Part shown: positions 1 through 30,219 of the stretch, piece after piece
Position numbering within the stretch: position 1 is the first letter of the stretch
Layout of the letters: each line of letters starts with the position of its first letter
Source of the DNA: Flavobacteriales bacterium
GTDB lineage: Bacteria > Bacteroidota > Bacteroidia > NS11-12g > UBA955
DNA: 37,834 nucleotides
NCBI GenBank assembly: GCA_002737625.1
Contig: NSIB01000010.1
Coordinates: 1 to 37,834, forward strand
Direction: 5' to 3'
Notes under the pieces: model-generated
Seen by the model: only the letters and a program-made list of their open reading frames with translations
Told to the model about the DNA's origin: nothing
Databases searched by the model: none
Made by a program: the position numbers and the translations under genes

Positions 1-70
1 AAATGATTGTTTGATCCGGCTTCCCAAAGTATTTATAATTTTGGGTGGCTTGTTATTCCTTACTCTGTAT

Positions 71-82
71 CTTTCAAAGAAC
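71..82 (-). promoter_or_regulatory. boxA-like antitermination site
   Basis: The minus strand reads GTTCTTTGAAAG here, resembling the boxA elements (GTTCTTTGA...) found in rRNA leaders and spacers of Bacteroidota. Its place downstream of three promoters supports an rRNA leader. NusB and S10/NusE (S10 is encoded at 26711-27019) would be the expected binders. Assignment by resemblance only. Confidence 0.45.
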
Positions 83-148
83 TTTATAAACTCAAGTCCG
101 TAGACTCGTTTATTGCTTTTTTTTCCTTATTCCTTCCGAAACGGGGTG

Positions 149-180
149 CAAATCTAACACTTGTTTTTGATTAAAACAAA
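149..180 (-). promoter_or_regulatory. Leftward promoter P3 (rRNA-type)
   Basis: Minus-strand TTTG (177-180), 20-base spacer, then TAGATTTG (149-156), matching TAnnTTTG. Followed by CACCCCGTTTC, the same start-region motif as P1 and P2. Lies 112 bases downstream of P2 and about 150 bases from the left edge. Confidence 0.65.
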
Positions 181-260
181 CTTAATTTTTGAAAAATTAA
201 GCACGATCATCTCAACAACTGTTTTGATTTCGGCACTTCGTAACTTTTAGAACGGGGTCG

Positions 261-293
261 CAAAGATAGTGATGTTTTTACTTTTTAAACAAA
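261..293 (-). promoter_or_regulatory. Leftward promoter P2 (rRNA-type)
   Basis: Minus-strand TTTG (290-293), 21-base spacer, then TATCTTTG (261-268), matching TAnnTTTG. Downstream bases CGACCCCGTTC repeat the motif seen after P1 and P3. Lies 93 bases downstream of P1. Confidence 0.65.
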
Positions 294-353
294 TAACTTT
301 TTAATAATTTGCTATCTGCCCAAGTCGTTGGACGTCTCTATCAGAACGGGATG

Positions 354-384
354 CAAAATTACCATCTTTTTTGACATATTCAAA
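354..384 (-). promoter_or_regulatory. Leftward promoter P1 (rRNA-type)
   Basis: On the minus strand a TTTG (381-384) is followed after 19 bases by TAATTTTG (354-361), an exact match to the Bacteroidota -33/-7 consensus TTTG-N19-21-TAnnTTTG. The bases just downstream read CATCCCGTTC, shared in near-identical form with P2 and P3. It is the most upstream of three tandem promoters pointing out of the window. Confidence 0.65.
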
Positions 385-454: not shown

Positions 455-1699
455 TTATCGCCAAAGTAAAGAACCATCTCCGTAGCTTAGAAAACGGTAG
501 CTTTCACGGTGTGCATGCTCGTAAATACCCCGCCACTTTCCTCCCAAAAATGCATCAACCAACATCAATAATGTCGATTTGGGTTGGTGAAAGTTAGTAA
601 TTAAGCCATCGCAGATGCGAAAATTGAACCCAGCAACAATAAAAATCTTCGTCTCACCACCCAAAATACCAACGCTCCGCTCACAAAAATCCAGAATTGC
701 CAATAAAGATTCTTTCAAATCCACCTCCCTATTCAGTAATCGAACCGATAAATCACAATATGCATCCTCCGTCTCTACCTTCCCCATCCACTGATTTCCT
801 AAAATTCTCACACCTATATAATATAAACTCTCCAAAACCCGCATCGATGTCGTACCAATAGCCACTACCCTACCCCCACGTTTCGATGGAAATTCACTTT
901 CCATACCTACGTGACGAACTGATTCGCCTGGATACAACCTAAGTAATAACTGCGCTATCAAATCCTGATTGATTTCAAAACGCTCCGAATGCATATCGTG
1001 ATGATGTGAAAACTCGCCTGTCATCGGTTTAAATGTCCCCGCACCCACATGCAAGGTCAACTTGGCCAACCCAATTCCCTTTCCTAAGATCCGCTGCTCC
1101 AATTCCTCCGTGAAGTGTAACGATGCCGTTGGTGCCGCTACCGCCCCTGTCTTTTCGGCAAAAATGGCCTGATACCTCTCTTTATCACCAACCTCTACAC
1201 CGCGATCTATATATGGAGGCAATGGCACTTTCCCCAAATCCTCGATGGCCTCAGGCATACTGCTATACCCCTCAGGCAATTCAAACTGCACTTGATTTTC
1301 TTCCCTACTCAGCCACTTTATTGTCAACTTCTCCGAAACTACCGCCTCATCCCCCTCTCTAAACCGCTTGCGATTTCCAACCATCGCTTCCCATCTCAAC
1401 CATTCCGCATCCAACGGCTTCAATAAAAATATCTCGATTTGATGCCCCCCCGATGTTAATGCATGCAACCGCGCAGGTATCACCTTGGTGTCGTTGGCAA
1501 CCAACAATACATCCGCCCCCAATTCCTGATCCAATTCATGGAAACGACGATCCTTGATTTCACTACCAGTCCAAACCAATAACTTACTCGCATCTCTCGG
1601 CTCGATGGCATATTGTGCAATTTGATCTGATGTTAAACTACAGTCGTAATCGCTGACAGCCAAATGAGGCACTCCATTGTCAAAGCCGTCCTCGATCAT
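455..1699 (-). CDS. queA: S-adenosylmethionine:tRNA ribosyltransferase-isomerase QueA
   Basis: QueA transfers and isomerises the ribosyl part of SAM onto preQ1-modified tRNA, giving epoxyqueuosine at the wobble base. Family motifs visible in the 414 residues are NDTKVIPARL near the N-terminus, VGAGTFKPM in the middle, and ITNFHQPKSTLLMLV and YGDGSLL near the C-terminus. At about 410 residues it is the longer form common in Bacteroidota. The reading frame stays open to 1804, but the extra N-terminal stretch overlaps rdgB and is unlike QueA; the ATG at 1699 forms an ATGA overlap with the rdgB stop, implying translational coupling. It is the last gene of the plsY-clpS-scoA-rdgB-queA unit. Identification is firm; the exact start is likely. 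Confidence 0.93.
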   Translation of the reverse strand: MIEDGFDNGVPHLAVSDYDCSLTSDQIAQYAIEPRDASKLLVWTGSEIKDRRFHELDQELGADVLLVANDTKVIPARLHALTSGGHQIEIFLLKPLDAEWLRWEAMVGNRKRFREGDEAVVSEKLTIKWLSREENQVQFELPEGYSSMPEAIEDLGKVPLPPYIDRGVEVGDKERYQAIFAEKTGAVAAPTASLHFTEELEQRILGKGIGLAKLTLHVGAGTFKPMTGEFSHHHDMHSERFEINQDLIAQLLLRLYPGESVRHVGMESEFPSKRGGRVVAIGTTSMRVLESLYYIGVRILGNQWMGKVETEDAYCDLSVRLLNREVDLKESLLAILDFCERSVGILGGETKIFIVAGFNFRICDGLITNFHQPKSTLLMLVDAFLGGKWRGIYEHAHRESYRFLSYGDGSLLWR

Positions 1700-2283
1700 C
1701 CCAAATACTCCATTAATGATTGAAATGCCCGACCTCGATGACTCATCGCATTTTTTTCCGCCGCCGACATTTCCGCAAAAGAACGAGTCTCGCCATCCGG
1801 ACAAAATAAGGGATCATATCCAAATCCATCACGGCCTTGAATTTCTGTCAAAATCACTCCATTTACCCTGCCCTCTATATATGTAGGTTTATCATCAAAT
1901 CCCACCAAACACAAAACCGTTATAAAAAAGGCGCGTCTGTCTGCTTTCCCTACCATCACTCGCAGCAATTTTTTATTGTTTTTATTATGATTACCCGCTT
2001 CTCCCGCATATCGAGAAGAATAAACACCGGGCTCCCCTTCCAGAGATTCCACACACAAACCGCTATCATCTGCCACACAAGGCAAACCAGTTAAAGCCCA
2101 AACGGCCTCGGCCTTGAGCAATGCATTTCCGCGAAATGTTGTTTCCGTTTCATCCACATCAATATCTACCCCCGCTTCTTTCAATGAAATCAAATGCAAT
2201 TTACCCTGAACGATGGCCTGCGCTTCATCAATCTTATGTTGATTGTTGGTGGCAAAAACCAATGTCTGCAATTCAACTCCCAT
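1696..2283 (-). CDS. rdgB: Non-canonical purine NTP pyrophosphatase (RdgB/HAM1)
   Basis: Hydrolyses dITP, dXTP and ITP to monophosphates, keeping deaminated purines out of DNA and RNA. The 195-residue protein shows the whole HAM1 signature set: ATNNQHK at 11-17 (phosphate binding), DDSGL at 72-76, PGVYSSRYAG at about 85-94, GRDGFGYDPLF at about 150, and MSAAEKNAMSHRGRA near the C-terminus. Length is normal for the family (about 190-200). It starts 4 bases behind the scoA stop and its stop overlaps the queA start by four bases, so it is an internal gene of the operon. No unusual residues are seen. Confidence 0.95.
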   Translation of the reverse strand: MGVELQTLVFATNNQHKIDEAQAIVQGKLHLISLKEAGVDIDVDETETTFRGNALLKAEAVWALTGLPCVADDSGLCVESLEGEPGVYSSRYAGEAGNHNKNNKKLLRVMVGKADRRAFFITVLCLVGFDDKPTYIEGRVNGVILTEIQGRDGFGYDPLFCPDGETRSFAEMSAAEKNAMSHRGRAFQSLMEYLG

Positions 2284-4069: not shown

Positions 4070-6790
4070 TTAAGGCTTCACAAGCTTAATTGCAGCCACT
4101 TCTGAGCCTGATTTAACCTGAACCCAATAAATTCCTGACAACAAACCCGTTACATCCAACGCCAATCCGCCACCGTTTAACGTTGCTGTTGGAACCGAAT
4201 GTAAGCTACCTTTGATGTCGAATACCGTTGCGGATTCAATTTTTAACACGGACATGGGTTCGATCACAAATACCTCGGTTGCTGGATTTGGATGAGCTTT
4301 CAACCAATCTTGTTGGATTTGATTCACGTTTGATGCAGGTATTGGAGGCAAATCAAATGCCTCTTCCCCATCAGCACAGTTATTAGCACTGCCCTGAGCT
4401 GCGGAATAACCCAATCCCCTACGAGAAAAAGCATCCCAAATGATTTTCTTATTTGCATTGCCATAGCGAATACTATCGGCCGCCATTATCGCATCCCTTG
4501 CATCCACAAATCCGGGACCACATGGCTGTAATTTCATGGCATCAATCACCACTTGTACCGCACGATTGTTTCCTCCTGTACCGTTATATAAATCCTCATC
4601 AAAACCGTATTTATCTACATAGCCCCAGAACATATCCCAAAGCATAGCGCACCAAATCTCACCCGTATAATGGACTTCTGTTTGCACGCCCGAAGCTGCT
4701 TTTGCCAAATTTCCGTAGGTATGGGGATTCAACGACATGTTGGTTGAGTATGGATAGGTCCGAATACCATCGCCAGTTTGATCTTGGCCAAACAACCAAT
4801 TCCCAACTCCGCGTGGCTTAGAACCCACATCACCCTTTTTTGCAGTAAATGCCAATCCCATAAAATCGCTCCATCCTTCGCCCATTTGCTCGGCATTGCT
4901 CAATCCATTGGAATTTGAAGGGCCGCAAGTTAAACGTGTAGAAATTCCATGGGTATATTCATGTCCCATTACGCCCAAATCCAAATCACTGTCGGTCTTT
5001 TTTGCATAAGCCGAACTATCATAAAACGTGATACTCAACGAAGAATCCGCCAAAAATGTTCTCAATTCATTGGCATTTGAAAAACGGACAAAAATCACTG
5101 GAATTGTTACTTTACTCGCCTGCGCAGTATTGTCTGTCGCCATTGTAATCACAGCATCCGCAGTAGATGTATCTAACAAAATTGCCGCGGTAGCGCCATT
5201 GGATTGTGCACGGTAAACTTTTTGAACAAACGTGCAACCGCCACGAACGATGGCTGCAAAATTCCCTTTTAACTCTGAACTGTTTGTTAAACCCGTGCAA
5301 CATTTGTTTGTCACCGGCGATACATTATCCTTAACCAAAATCATTTTACCCGTGGTAGGAACGGCGGTGATTTTCTTACCCCAATTGCCATCGGTGATGC
5401 CTACGCCATATTTAACTCCTTTACCATTATTAACAACCAAGTTGGCTTTTGCGCCCACACCATCCCAGATATACATTTGCATGCGGGGGGCTGAGCCATC
5501 GGGAGGCGTTGACATATTGGCATTGTTTGTACCACTGCCATCCTGAGCATCTGCATTCACAGCATCGTTACCGGCACCCAAACCATCATAATTGTTCTTC
5601 TGAAAATTCCCGCTGGGCTCATCAAATCCATAATGCTGCGAAATATCATGCATGAAATTATTCACCACAAACAAATTTCCTATGGCAAAATCCTGATAGT
5701 TCAGTGGATTGGTCTCGGCTGGGTCATATGCCAAATTAAATGCGAGCGATGCCCCACCATCAGGAGATTTTCCTGGTGTGTTTTTTCCAGCTGCGTCTTC
5801 TGCCGCATAAACGTTATTTCCACGAGTGATTGTGTATTCCGCACCGGATTTGCCGTCCACATCATGCCATCCATAGGGCGATGCTTGGGCGTCTGCAGGA
5901 CTGGTGAGCGTGGTTGGACTGCCATATAGCGGACTTTCAGTGGGAAAAGAAAATGATTTATACGTTGCACCGTCTCCACGGCGTTGCAAGGGTTTGCTAC
6001 CTGATAACAACAAATTCTGAGAAACACTTTTTCCAATTAGCGGACGATTCGCTTCCATGGCAGACAATGAACCTTCATTGGAGCTATTTTTCTCCTCGGC
6101 CGACATGGCTGTTGGGGTACAATGAACTGTCCAACTATGTCGTTGCAAGATTTTACCAGATGCATCAATCCACAAATTGACCCAGTCTGAGGTTGCAGAA
6201 TTATAAAATACAAAATACTGTGCAGCGATTAAATCTCCCTTTTCGTTAGGCCATGCCATCGCCTGAGTATAAAATTCACTCTCTTCGAATCGGGTTCCGA
6301 TGGTCATGGGTTGCCATTTGATTCCGGTTGTTGGAAAAATCGAAGATTCATTGCTGCCGTCTGAAGTAACGAGGCGAGCCAAACCATTTTCTTGTTCGAT
6401 GGCTTTTGCGCCTAAAACTTCCTTATTCAACGCGGTAAATGAACCCACCAAATGATCCGTAACATGCGCAACGGCACGGTTGGTAGAATACAATAAATCT
6501 CCATTTGGGTTGAAATGCAGTCCCATCACACCATTCATCACGGGAACACCTTGAATTGTTTGCAATACATAAGCATGCGTAACTCCGCTGCCATCACGAT
6601 ATAAATCCTGAATCTGAGCGGCGGCCATATCTTCCTTCACCAATCCCCATTTCCCCGCCGCCGCTAAATCCATGGCGGTTTGAAGAACTTTGGCTTTGGT
6701 TAAAGTAGAAACAGAATTTTGAGCATTCGCTTTAAAACTGATGGCAAAAATCCCCATCAATACAAATTGTTTAAACTGTCTGGTACGCAT
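4070..6790 (-). CDS. Secreted M36 (fungalysin) metallopeptidase with PA and T9SS sorting domains
   Basis: Predicted extracellular zinc metalloprotease of 906 residues. A signal peptide (MRTRQFKQFVLMGIFAISF then KANA-QN) is followed by an FTP-type propeptide. The M36 catalytic domain carries HEYTH at 610-614 and the third zinc ligand Glu638 in GEGWSD. A protease-associated (PA) domain sits at about 480-585, before the active site, with FAAIVRGGCTFVQK as its core. The last 75 residues begin AHPNPATEVFVIEP and end IYWVQVKSGSEVAAIKLVKP, typical of a type A T9SS sorting domain, so it is likely exported by T9SS and anchored or released. The ATG at 6790 is chosen over the one at 6838 because only it starts with a proper signal peptide. 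Monocistronic, behind the eno terminator. Confidence 0.9.
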   Translation of the reverse strand: MRTRQFKQFVLMGIFAISFKANAQNSVSTLTKAKVLQTAMDLAAAGKWGLVKEDMAAAQIQDLYRDGSGVTHAYVLQTIQGVPVMNGVMGLHFNPNGDLLYSTNRAVAHVTDHLVGSFTALNKEVLGAKAIEQENGLARLVTSDGSNESSIFPTTGIKWQPMTIGTRFEESEFYTQAMAWPNEKGDLIAAQYFVFYNSATSDWVNLWIDASGKILQRHSWTVHCTPTAMSAEEKNSSNEGSLSAMEANRPLIGKSVSQNLLLSGSKPLQRRGDGATYKSFSFPTESPLYGSPTTLTSPADAQASPYGWHDVDGKSGAEYTITRGNNVYAAEDAAGKNTPGKSPDGGASLAFNLAYDPAETNPLNYQDFAIGNLFVVNNFMHDISQHYGFDEPSGNFQKNNYDGLGAGNDAVNADAQDGSGTNNANMSTPPDGSAPRMQMYIWDGVGAKANLVVNNGKGVKYGVGITDGNWGKKITAVPTTGKMILVKDNVSPVTNKCCTGLTNSSELKGNFAAIVRGGCTFVQKVYRAQSNGATAAILLDTSTADAVITMATDNTAQASKVTIPVIFVRFSNANELRTFLADSSLSITFYDSSAYAKKTDSDLDLGVMGHEYTHGISTRLTCGPSNSNGLSNAEQMGEGWSDFMGLAFTAKKGDVGSKPRGVGNWLFGQDQTGDGIRTYPYSTNMSLNPHTYGNLAKAASGVQTEVHYTGEIWCAMLWDMFWGYVDKYGFDEDLYNGTGGNNRAVQVVIDAMKLQPCGPGFVDARDAIMAADSIRYGNANKKIIWDAFSRRGLGYSAAQGSANNCADGEEAFDLPPIPASNVNQIQQDWLKAHPNPATEVFVIEPMSVLKIESATVFDIKGSLHSVPTATLNGGGLALDVTGLLSGIYWVQVKSGSEVAAIKLVKP

Positions 6791-29634: not shown

Positions 29635-30015
29635 TTATTTCTTAGCCTTTGGTTTCTTTGTGCCATATTTACTTCTTCGCTGGTTACGGCCTTCTACTCC
29701 GGCAGTATCCAATGCTCCTCGTACGATGTGATAACGTACACCCGGCAAATCCTTAACCCTGCCGCCACGTACCAAAACGATACTGTGTTCTTGCAAGTTG
29801 TGGCCTTCACCTGGAATGTAGGCGTTCACTTCTTTTCCGTTCGACAAACGTACACGAGCTACCTTACGAAGAGCCGAATTCGGCTTCTTTGGTGTAGTTG
29901 TGTATACGCGGGTACAAACACCTCTGCGCTGTGGACAAGAATCAAGTGCAGGTGACTTGCTCTTATAAACAGTTTCCTGCCGTCCCTTTCTAATTAGCTG
30001 TTGAATTGTTGGCAT
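29635..30015 (-). CDS. rpsL: 30S ribosomal protein S12
   Basis: Decoding-centre protein controlling fidelity and the target of streptomycin resistance changes. The 126 residues show [40 protein letters not shown] and [20 protein letters not shown]. The lysines in PKKPNS and VKDLPG are those of drug-sensitive proteins. Start at ATG 30015; the frame stays open to 30099 but that extension covers the promoter and does not resemble S12. First gene of the superoperon; 20 bases upstream of the ATG is a -7 element. Confidence 0.98.
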
Positions 30016-30035
30016 ATTTTTCCCAAAAAGGACGG

Positions 30036-30066
30036 CAAAATTACGCCTATTATTTGTCAAAATCAA
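30036..30066 (-). promoter_or_regulatory. Promoter of the str-S10-spc-alpha superoperon
   Basis: Minus-strand TTG (30064-30066), 20-base spacer, then TAATTTTG (30036-30043), matching TAnnTTTG. It continues GCCGTCC, resembling the start regions of the rRNA-type promoters at the left edge (same -7 as P1). The leader before rpsL is about 17 bases. It is the only convincing promoter I find for the 31-gene unit. Confidence 0.65.
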
Positions 30067-30219
30067 GACGATGTTAAAAAAATATAGCACTGAATTCAAA
30101 AGAAACCCAAATATCCTTCAAATTTGGGCCATTATAGGGGTTGCGCAGCCCTAAATTGCTGAATTCAATGACCCATCGGGCAACTTTCATCTTTTTTTCA
30201 ACGTCTCCCATTTTGGCAC

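Follow-up and report, generated by a model that had tools for sequence, protein, structure and literature searches.

The window, that is, the whole stretch of DNA analyzed here (37,834 nucleotides, or 37.8 kb), constitutes an entire contig of a Bacteroidia metagenome-assembled genome (MAG; 1.46 Mb, 73.6% complete), the left-hand end of which (positions 1 to 384, minus strand) comprises, as judged by synteny, the promoters and the leader of an rRNA operon, with the 16S rRNA gene located just beyond the contig (Table 1). An assembly-wide search detected no 16S gene in this MAG (designated G000), and no RNA family was matched in the window using Rfam. The block is, nevertheless, 86% identical over its full length (458 bp) to a region of the closest relative (genome G004, contig C10, positions 5286 to 5743) which adjoins a 16S gene (locus L002), the same contig harboring 16S, tRNA-Ile, tRNA-Ala, 23S, and 5S and, thus, a complete rrn operon. 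Synteny with this contig places a 16S gene directly downstream and on the same strand, thereby bearing out the original prediction, which had read the region as the control region of an rRNA operon. Among 14 loci submitted to Rfam, a 16S gene was present next to the matching block in five (L002, L006, L011, L013, and L015), the others being contig-edge ends or tRNA loci. By comparison with L002, base 1 of the window corresponds to a position two bases before the start of the Rfam 16S model, and the 16S sequence GTTTGATCC is expected approximately 12 bases beyond it, well inside the 300 bases within which an rRNA gene had been anticipated. In other genera of the same family (f1), tandem promoters of a similar type were found by eye to recur before 16S. 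The genome encodes two queA-like genes, one of which terminates approximately 70 nucleotides before the first rrn promoter of the window, while the other (L202, contig C14) carries the start element described below and is situated just before tRNA-Leu(gag).

Table 1. Features of the rRNA operon control region and the rpsL superoperon in the window
Feature	Positions	Strand	Description
Leader segment GGATCAAAC	9..17	-	Complementary to the 16S 5' end GTTTGATCC in relatives
boxA-like GTTCTTTGAA	73..82	-	Putative antitermination site
boxB-like hairpin	86..114	-	Predicted; between P3 and boxA, directly before boxA
P3	140..180	-	-33 TTTG 177-180, spacer 20, -7 TAGATTTG 149-156, start element CACCCCGTT 140-148
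P2	251..293	-	-33 TTTG 290-293, spacer 21, -7 TATCTTTG 261-268, start element CGACCCCGTT 251-260
P1	345..384	-	-33 TTTG 381-384, spacer 19, -7 TAATTTTG 354-361, start element CATCCCGTT 345-353
queA-like gene (Queuosine_synth)	458..1804	-	Pfam PF02547; upstream of P1, same direction, outside the promoter region
rpsL (S12)	29638..30015	-	Pfam PF00164 and neighbors; first gene of rpsL-rpsG-fusA-rpsJ-rplC
rpsL superoperon promoter	30030..30067	-	-33 CTTG, spacer 20, -7 TAATTTTG 30036-30043, start CCGTCC 30030-30035

The three tandem promoters, P1, P2, and P3, conform in both boxes and spacing to the primary-sigma consensus of the Bacteroidota (-33 TTTG and -7 TAnnTTTG, here 19 to 21 nucleotides apart), as given in the passages of PMC7366714 and PMC9723704 drawn on here, and represent the tandem arrangement of an rRNA control region. 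Their strand and individual spacers are precisely those originally proposed, and each continues into a shared start region of the form C-n-YCCCGTT; the interval that had been assigned to them (149 to 384) encompasses the promoters, whereas the start motif of P3 falls just outside its left limit. The pattern TTTG-N19-21-TANNTTTGC-N1-3-CCCGTT has exactly three matches in the window, all on the minus strand and corresponding to P1, P2, and P3, whereas none of 100 dinucleotide shuffles contained any match (mean 0.00, maximum 0). The two boxes alone produced five matches versus 1.06 by chance, with 1 of 100 shuffles reaching at least five, which is weak evidence; it is, therefore, the sharing of the start region, and not the boxes alone, which renders the set significant. 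A homolog of P1 is present in several same-genus relatives, and P2 is the same in L002 and L003, its start (CGACCCC) being one base longer and not strictly matching the generalized element defined below. The 20 nucleotides upstream of the -33 boxes of P1, P2, and P3 are 75%, 85%, and 90% A+T, respectively, values obtained in AT-rich intergenic DNA with no control set. An inverted repeat identified by eye, TTAATTTTT-C-AAAAATTAA (window positions 182 to 200), lies just upstream of the -33 box of P3 and is possibly a UP-like or protein-binding site. In two same-genus genomes (G001 and G009; L007/L008), a further rrn promoter was noted whose start region appears, by eye, to be foldable on itself (CCCCTTCCGATAAGGGG in L008).

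The leader downstream of P3 resembles the rrn boxB-boxA antitermination leader, in that a predicted hairpin is followed by a boxA-like sequence (GTTCTTTGA) which is conserved before 16S. The boxA-like site, whose presence downstream of the promoters had been correctly anticipated, is unchanged in eight other leaders of the same genus (g1; L014 and L016 are not among them); this putative site, identified from its sequence, differs from the boxA of Escherichia coli. Single-sequence folding predicted a hairpin at the corresponding position in 16 of 16 family f1 leaders, with a different shape in L017. In an alignment of 14 of these 16 leaders (13 distinct; L015 and L017 were left out), 87% of cells were paired, and the paired cells, the cells changed on both sides (nine), and the covariation score were each higher than in any of 500 shuffles or any slid version. 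Four pairs, however, were changed on both sides, a number attained in 48 of the shuffles, and the observed count of pair types was attained in 489 of them; we conclude that the leader hairpin has some covariation. The leader also harbors GGATCAAAC, which, in full or in a shorter form, occurs just before 16S in L002, L004, L006, L008 to L013, L015, L018, and L020 in addition to the window, and folding of the family f1 leaders that reach 16S predicts a hairpin over its start in all 12. Such pairing resembles proposals of cis-acting, U3-like control of 16S pseudoknot folding. The complementarity was not significant per sequence against a mononucleotide shuffle (p about 0.07 to 0.12 in genus g1) and was not consistent in leaders outside family f1.

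The promoter of the rpsL superoperon fits the Bacteroidota consensus at the -7 box and carries CTTG in place of TTTG at -33. It had been proposed to share its -7 sequence with P1 and to possess a related downstream motif: the -7 boxes are indeed identical, and CCGTCC, which is retained at this position in eight of eight family f1 genomes, is related to the rrn start regions through the generalized element, while CCCGTT itself is absent. Over 18 bases, this promoter and that of tRNA-Thr in the tRNA-tuf cluster differ at a single position (TTTGCAGTCCTTTTTGGG versus TTTGCCGTCCTTTTTGGG; tuf assigned by eye).

The CCCGTT core was rejected as a genome-wide mark, as TTTGNN{1,2}CCCGTT occurred at 14 sites in G000 compared to 13 for the reversed control; three of the 14 represent P1, P3, and tRNA-Leu(gag), and the others look like chance. 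The conserved core was instead defined as TAnnTTTG-C[A/C]-N-Y-C-C (TANNTTTGCMNYCC), a generalization made after tRNA promoters and those of rpsL, rplM, and rplU had been viewed; because the pattern was drawn from these promoters, the counts that they yield in G000, G004, and G014 cannot be regarded as independent of it. The later tests comprised the annotation of sites genome-wide, other families, the rpsL scan across the Bacteroidia, and gap, rpsL of the own family having been viewed beforehand. In the window, the generalized element has three matches versus 0.08 expected, with 0 of 100 shuffles containing three.

Across G000, 30 sites matched TANNTTTGCMNYCC, compared to three for the reversed pattern, and 26 of these precede translation genes, namely, 11 tRNA genes, two rrn promoters (P1 and P3), 12 ribosomal-protein genes, and one queA. 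The ribosomal-protein sites, as assigned using Pfam, are those of rpsL, rpmB (twice), rplS (twice), rpsP, rpsT, rplM, rpsF, rpmH, rplU, and rpmE. The other four are located before a uppS-like gene and a PPIase/SurA-like gene and, in two instances, before DNA with no open reading frame (ORF) found downstream, a number close to that predicted by the reversed control. The twofold occurrence of rpmB and rplS involves contigs C1 (47326 and 58404) and C8 (13618 and 23549), where the two genes lie in the same orientation about 11.1 and 9.9 kb apart, and is possibly indicative of a mixed MAG (contamination of 2.35%) rather than a true duplication.

A TAnnTT(T/C)G box was present within 75 nucleotides of 60 of 81 tRNA genes in three genomes; among the 21 box-less genes, 19 appear, by eye, to occupy downstream positions in rrn, tRNA, or tuf operons, and the remaining two are tRNA-Pro(ggg), with a box further away (also by eye). 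In the tRNA promoters of G000, the box is followed by C in 17 of 17 cases and by CA in 16, while the fifth and sixth bases are C in 76% and 94%, respectively. The strict element, C[A/C]NYCC, was found in 12 of these 17 promoters (11 of 15 if only TTTG boxes are considered) and is, thus, lacking from five, the corresponding counts being 15 of 20 in G004 and 15 of 23 in G014. The core of P1 matches the tRNA-Leu(caa) promoter in many same-genus genomes, and within the eight genomes of family f1 the strict element precedes rpsL in 8/8, rplM in 8/8, and rplU in 7/8. As a control, 278 kb of G000 was sampled, in which 76 TAnnTTTG boxes lie near ORF starts; three carry the element, all of which precede translation genes (rpsL, rplS, and tRNA-Leu(tag)), leaving 0 of 73, these 73 being boxes near ORFs with unannotated downstream genes rather than proven promoters. 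The difference between 12 of 17 tRNA promoters and 3 of 76 boxes yields p = 6e-9 (Fisher), or 2e-11 with the three removed.

The element could conceivably serve only to make promoters strong, as an extended -7 box devoid of special regulation, given that translation genes are strongly expressed. Such an explanation would accommodate the readability of the first two bases of the element as a box extension and the general frequency of C directly after TTTG, which was observed at 25 of the 73 sampled sites and in 11 of 21 promoters of the glycolytic gene gap. The highly expressed gap gene, used as a matched control for rpsL, behaves otherwise with respect to the full element: in the best 30 gap loci from 60 class genomes, a box was present in 21, none of which (0/21) carries it. 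By comparison, a scan of rpsL covering the best 80 of at least 591 loci from named genomes (almost all assigned to the Bacteroidota by their record titles, the exceptions being one Kapabacteria and one record labeled Sphingomonadales) revealed a TAnnTT(T/C)G box within 260 nucleotides in 79 of the 80 and the strict element in 43, versus 4 of 213 other TAnnTTTG sites of the same loci (p = 1e-24), while 37 of these best 80 lack the strict element. When only the nearest box is considered, the element is present in 41 of 78 rpsL loci versus 0 of 21 for gap (p = 2e-6). The fifth and sixth bases, near the presumed start, are also strongly constrained, being C in 87% and 74% of rpsL promoters, as they are in the tRNA promoters, and C-rich discriminators slow promoter opening in E. 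coli, both of which speak against strength as the sole function. Since gap is the only matched control and derives from genomes other than those of the rpsL set, the contributions of promoter strength and regulation are incompletely disentangled, and we regard strength alone as unlikely yet deserving of serious consideration. Two records of the rpsL set bear doubtful titles: L389, labeled Sphingomonadales, holds a Bacteroidia-type rpsL promoter, and L383, a MAG named Chitinophaga pinensis, harbors the rpsL closest to that of the window (98%) among the best 80 loci.

Beyond the own family, translation genes are far overrepresented among the sites of three genomes from other families. In G098 (family f8), 17 of 22 sites precede tRNA (nine), 16S (two), or ribosomal-protein genes (six); in G106 (f10), 19 of 33 precede translation genes (nine tRNA and 10 ribosomal-protein genes, one of the latter encoding an S1-domain protein), a further site at a contig end being unassigned; and in G114 (f6), 11 of 28 do so, comprising six rrn sites, two tRNA genes, rplM, rpsL, and release factor 1. 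The 28 sites of G114, used here as the count, correspond to 24 distinct ones owing to three like rrn operons, and sites of G129 were left out of all counts. The mark is not exclusive in G106 and G114, where 14 and 17 sites, respectively, were not assigned to translation genes, compared to three and three for the reversed pattern, a surplus that would be in keeping with a role in promoter strength. At the level of the class, all 28 sampled genomes exceeded the control (781 versus 176 sites), whereas 48 of 89 genomes of other classes did so (602 versus 471 sites). Similarly, among rrn leaders with at least 400 nucleotides of upstream sequence, TAnnTTTG plus a relaxed element (one extra base, or G allowed in second position) was found in 9 of 11 within the class and in 1 of 14 outside it, where inspection by eye still revealed YCC close to the presumed start in several rrn promoters with another box. 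The start sequence which had been suggested to be common to rRNA and ribosomal-protein promoters is, thus, upheld and extends more widely, to tRNAs, many ribosomal-protein operons, and the class as a whole; the shared control of the rRNA operon and the superoperon, originally a guess, is supported at the level of sequence.

The register of the element relative to the -7 box is constant, although anywhere from 7 to 72 nucleotides (searched to 75) separate the box from the tRNA. The shortest distance is that of tRNA-Leu(taa), which, as predicted by ARAGORN, starts 7 nucleotides after the box in three of three genomes; in G004 and G014 its promoter carries the strict element, which is absent from the G000 counterpart, the box there being TATCTTCG with CAGTTC at the start. 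Because this tRNA starts so close to the box, a later leader motif can be discounted here; the element is anchored to the -7 box and not to the gene, and has to act at initiation. In Flavobacterium psychrophilum, the box spans -12 to -5 (as stated in the passage of PMC9723704 used here), and, if this position is transferred, the CC at the fifth and sixth bases would sit at +1/+2. RNAs would then be predicted to start with C, 5 nucleotides after the box, which could suggest that the C-run functions as a 5' RNA motif, i.e., that RNAs starting with CC or CCCG are recognized or folded (as a hairpin, in stability, or in antitermination), in loose parallel to eukaryotic 5'TOP RNAs. Some rrn start regions could indeed pair, such as CCCCTT..AAGGGG in L008 (by eye). 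A role of this kind is highly improbable, however, considering that the mature tRNA follows the box by just 7 to 10 nucleotides in tRNA-Leu(taa) and a number of further tRNAs, which leaves no room for a leader element, that RNase P would remove the 5' stretch from tRNAs, and that the element precedes mRNAs, rRNA, and tRNA alike.

A G+C-rich stretch between the box and the start site is a hallmark of E. coli stringent promoters, and such a stretch lies here between the -7 box and +1 of stable-RNA and ribosomal-protein promoters, as it does in E. coli, representing a plausible target of ppGpp and nucleoside triphosphate (NTP) control. It is proposed that the element C[A/C]NYCC, which is class-wide and shared by many rRNA, tRNA, and ribosomal-protein promoters, probably serves as a discriminator for growth-rate (ppGpp/NTP) control. 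C-rich DNA between the -7 box and approximately +2 would make the open complex short-lived, and the C-rich start sequence would set initiation at a C, such that output would follow NTP supply and fall with ppGpp, and the translation apparatus would be throttled together. The present data establish the location of the region (by synteny) and the sharing, anchoring, and conservation of the element; the start nucleotide, the behavior of the open complex, and the response to ppGpp or NTPs are features that we infer, and initiation at C is unusual, which counts against this proposal. The element differs from E. coli discriminators in that its sequence is specific, its register fixed (CANYCC after TAnnTTTG), and its sites recognizable genome-wide, in that the phylum harboring it has another primary-sigma consensus, and in that it possibly reaches approximately +2.

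The growth-rate or ppGpp control originally suggested is in partial agreement with the transcriptome of a Porphyromonas gingivalis mutant devoid of the two ppGpp synthetases (PMC6994654), in which tRNAs and ribosomal-protein genes are expressed at raised levels; the passage compared here gives 17 of the latter, including rplS, rpsT, rpmE2, rpsF, rpmH, rplU, and rpmB. Seven of the 10 distinct ribosomal-protein lead genes which carry the element in G000 appear in that passage, while rpsP, rplM, and rpsL do not and rpsJ and rpsC do; with 17 ribosomal-protein genes in the passage, some overlap is to be expected.

A CTP synthase gene of G106 (L282) carries the same start element, a telling occurrence if initiation at C senses CTP. 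It has, accordingly, a bearing on a further explanation, namely, that the choice of start site within C-C-C-G senses pyrimidine NTP pools, as it does at E. coli pyrC, and that translation genes follow CTP/GTP rather than ppGpp. While many sites do present a C run followed by G, many others lack the G (CAGTCCTTTT and CAACCCCAAA), and a single CTP synthase gene from a single genome offers thin support, leaving this explanation improbable.

The Bacteroidota consensus, as given in the consulted passages of PMC7366714 and PMC9723704, ends at TAnnTTTG, and the start element described here lies beyond it; three promoter sub-variants, SM1 to SM3, are distinguished in PMC9723704, none of which is tied to translation genes in the portion of its text covered here. 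Our literature search, which covered mostly open-access papers without their supplements, returned no report of such a start element or of a biochemical test thereof. As an rrn promoter region, the locus is ordinary; it is unusual in exposing a sequence-level mark of translation promoters across the class. A bolder formulation, which we advance tentatively and consider possible rather than probable, is that one six-base start-site code, C[A/C]NYCC, marks the translation promoters of the Bacteroidia (rRNA, most tRNAs, and many ribosomal-protein operons) and functions as a single initiation-level switch, which RNA polymerase, acting with ppGpp and/or the initiating CTP, would read without recourse to a DNA-binding regulator.

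Among the major bacteria of gut and aquatic habitats are the Bacteroidota, whose primary-sigma consensus is unusual, and, to our knowledge, little has been established on how they tie ribosome production to growth; the 16S promoters of Bacteroides thetaiotaomicron were reportedly the subject of a study in 2009. A short, recognizable element at the start site, shared by rRNA, tRNA, and ribosomal-protein promoters, makes growth control directly accessible to reporter constructs with altered bases, and allows a set of growth-controlled promoters to be proposed in Bacteroidia genomes, including those of uncultured members. The element may, thus, represent a candidate switch by which these bacteria match ribosome production to growth.
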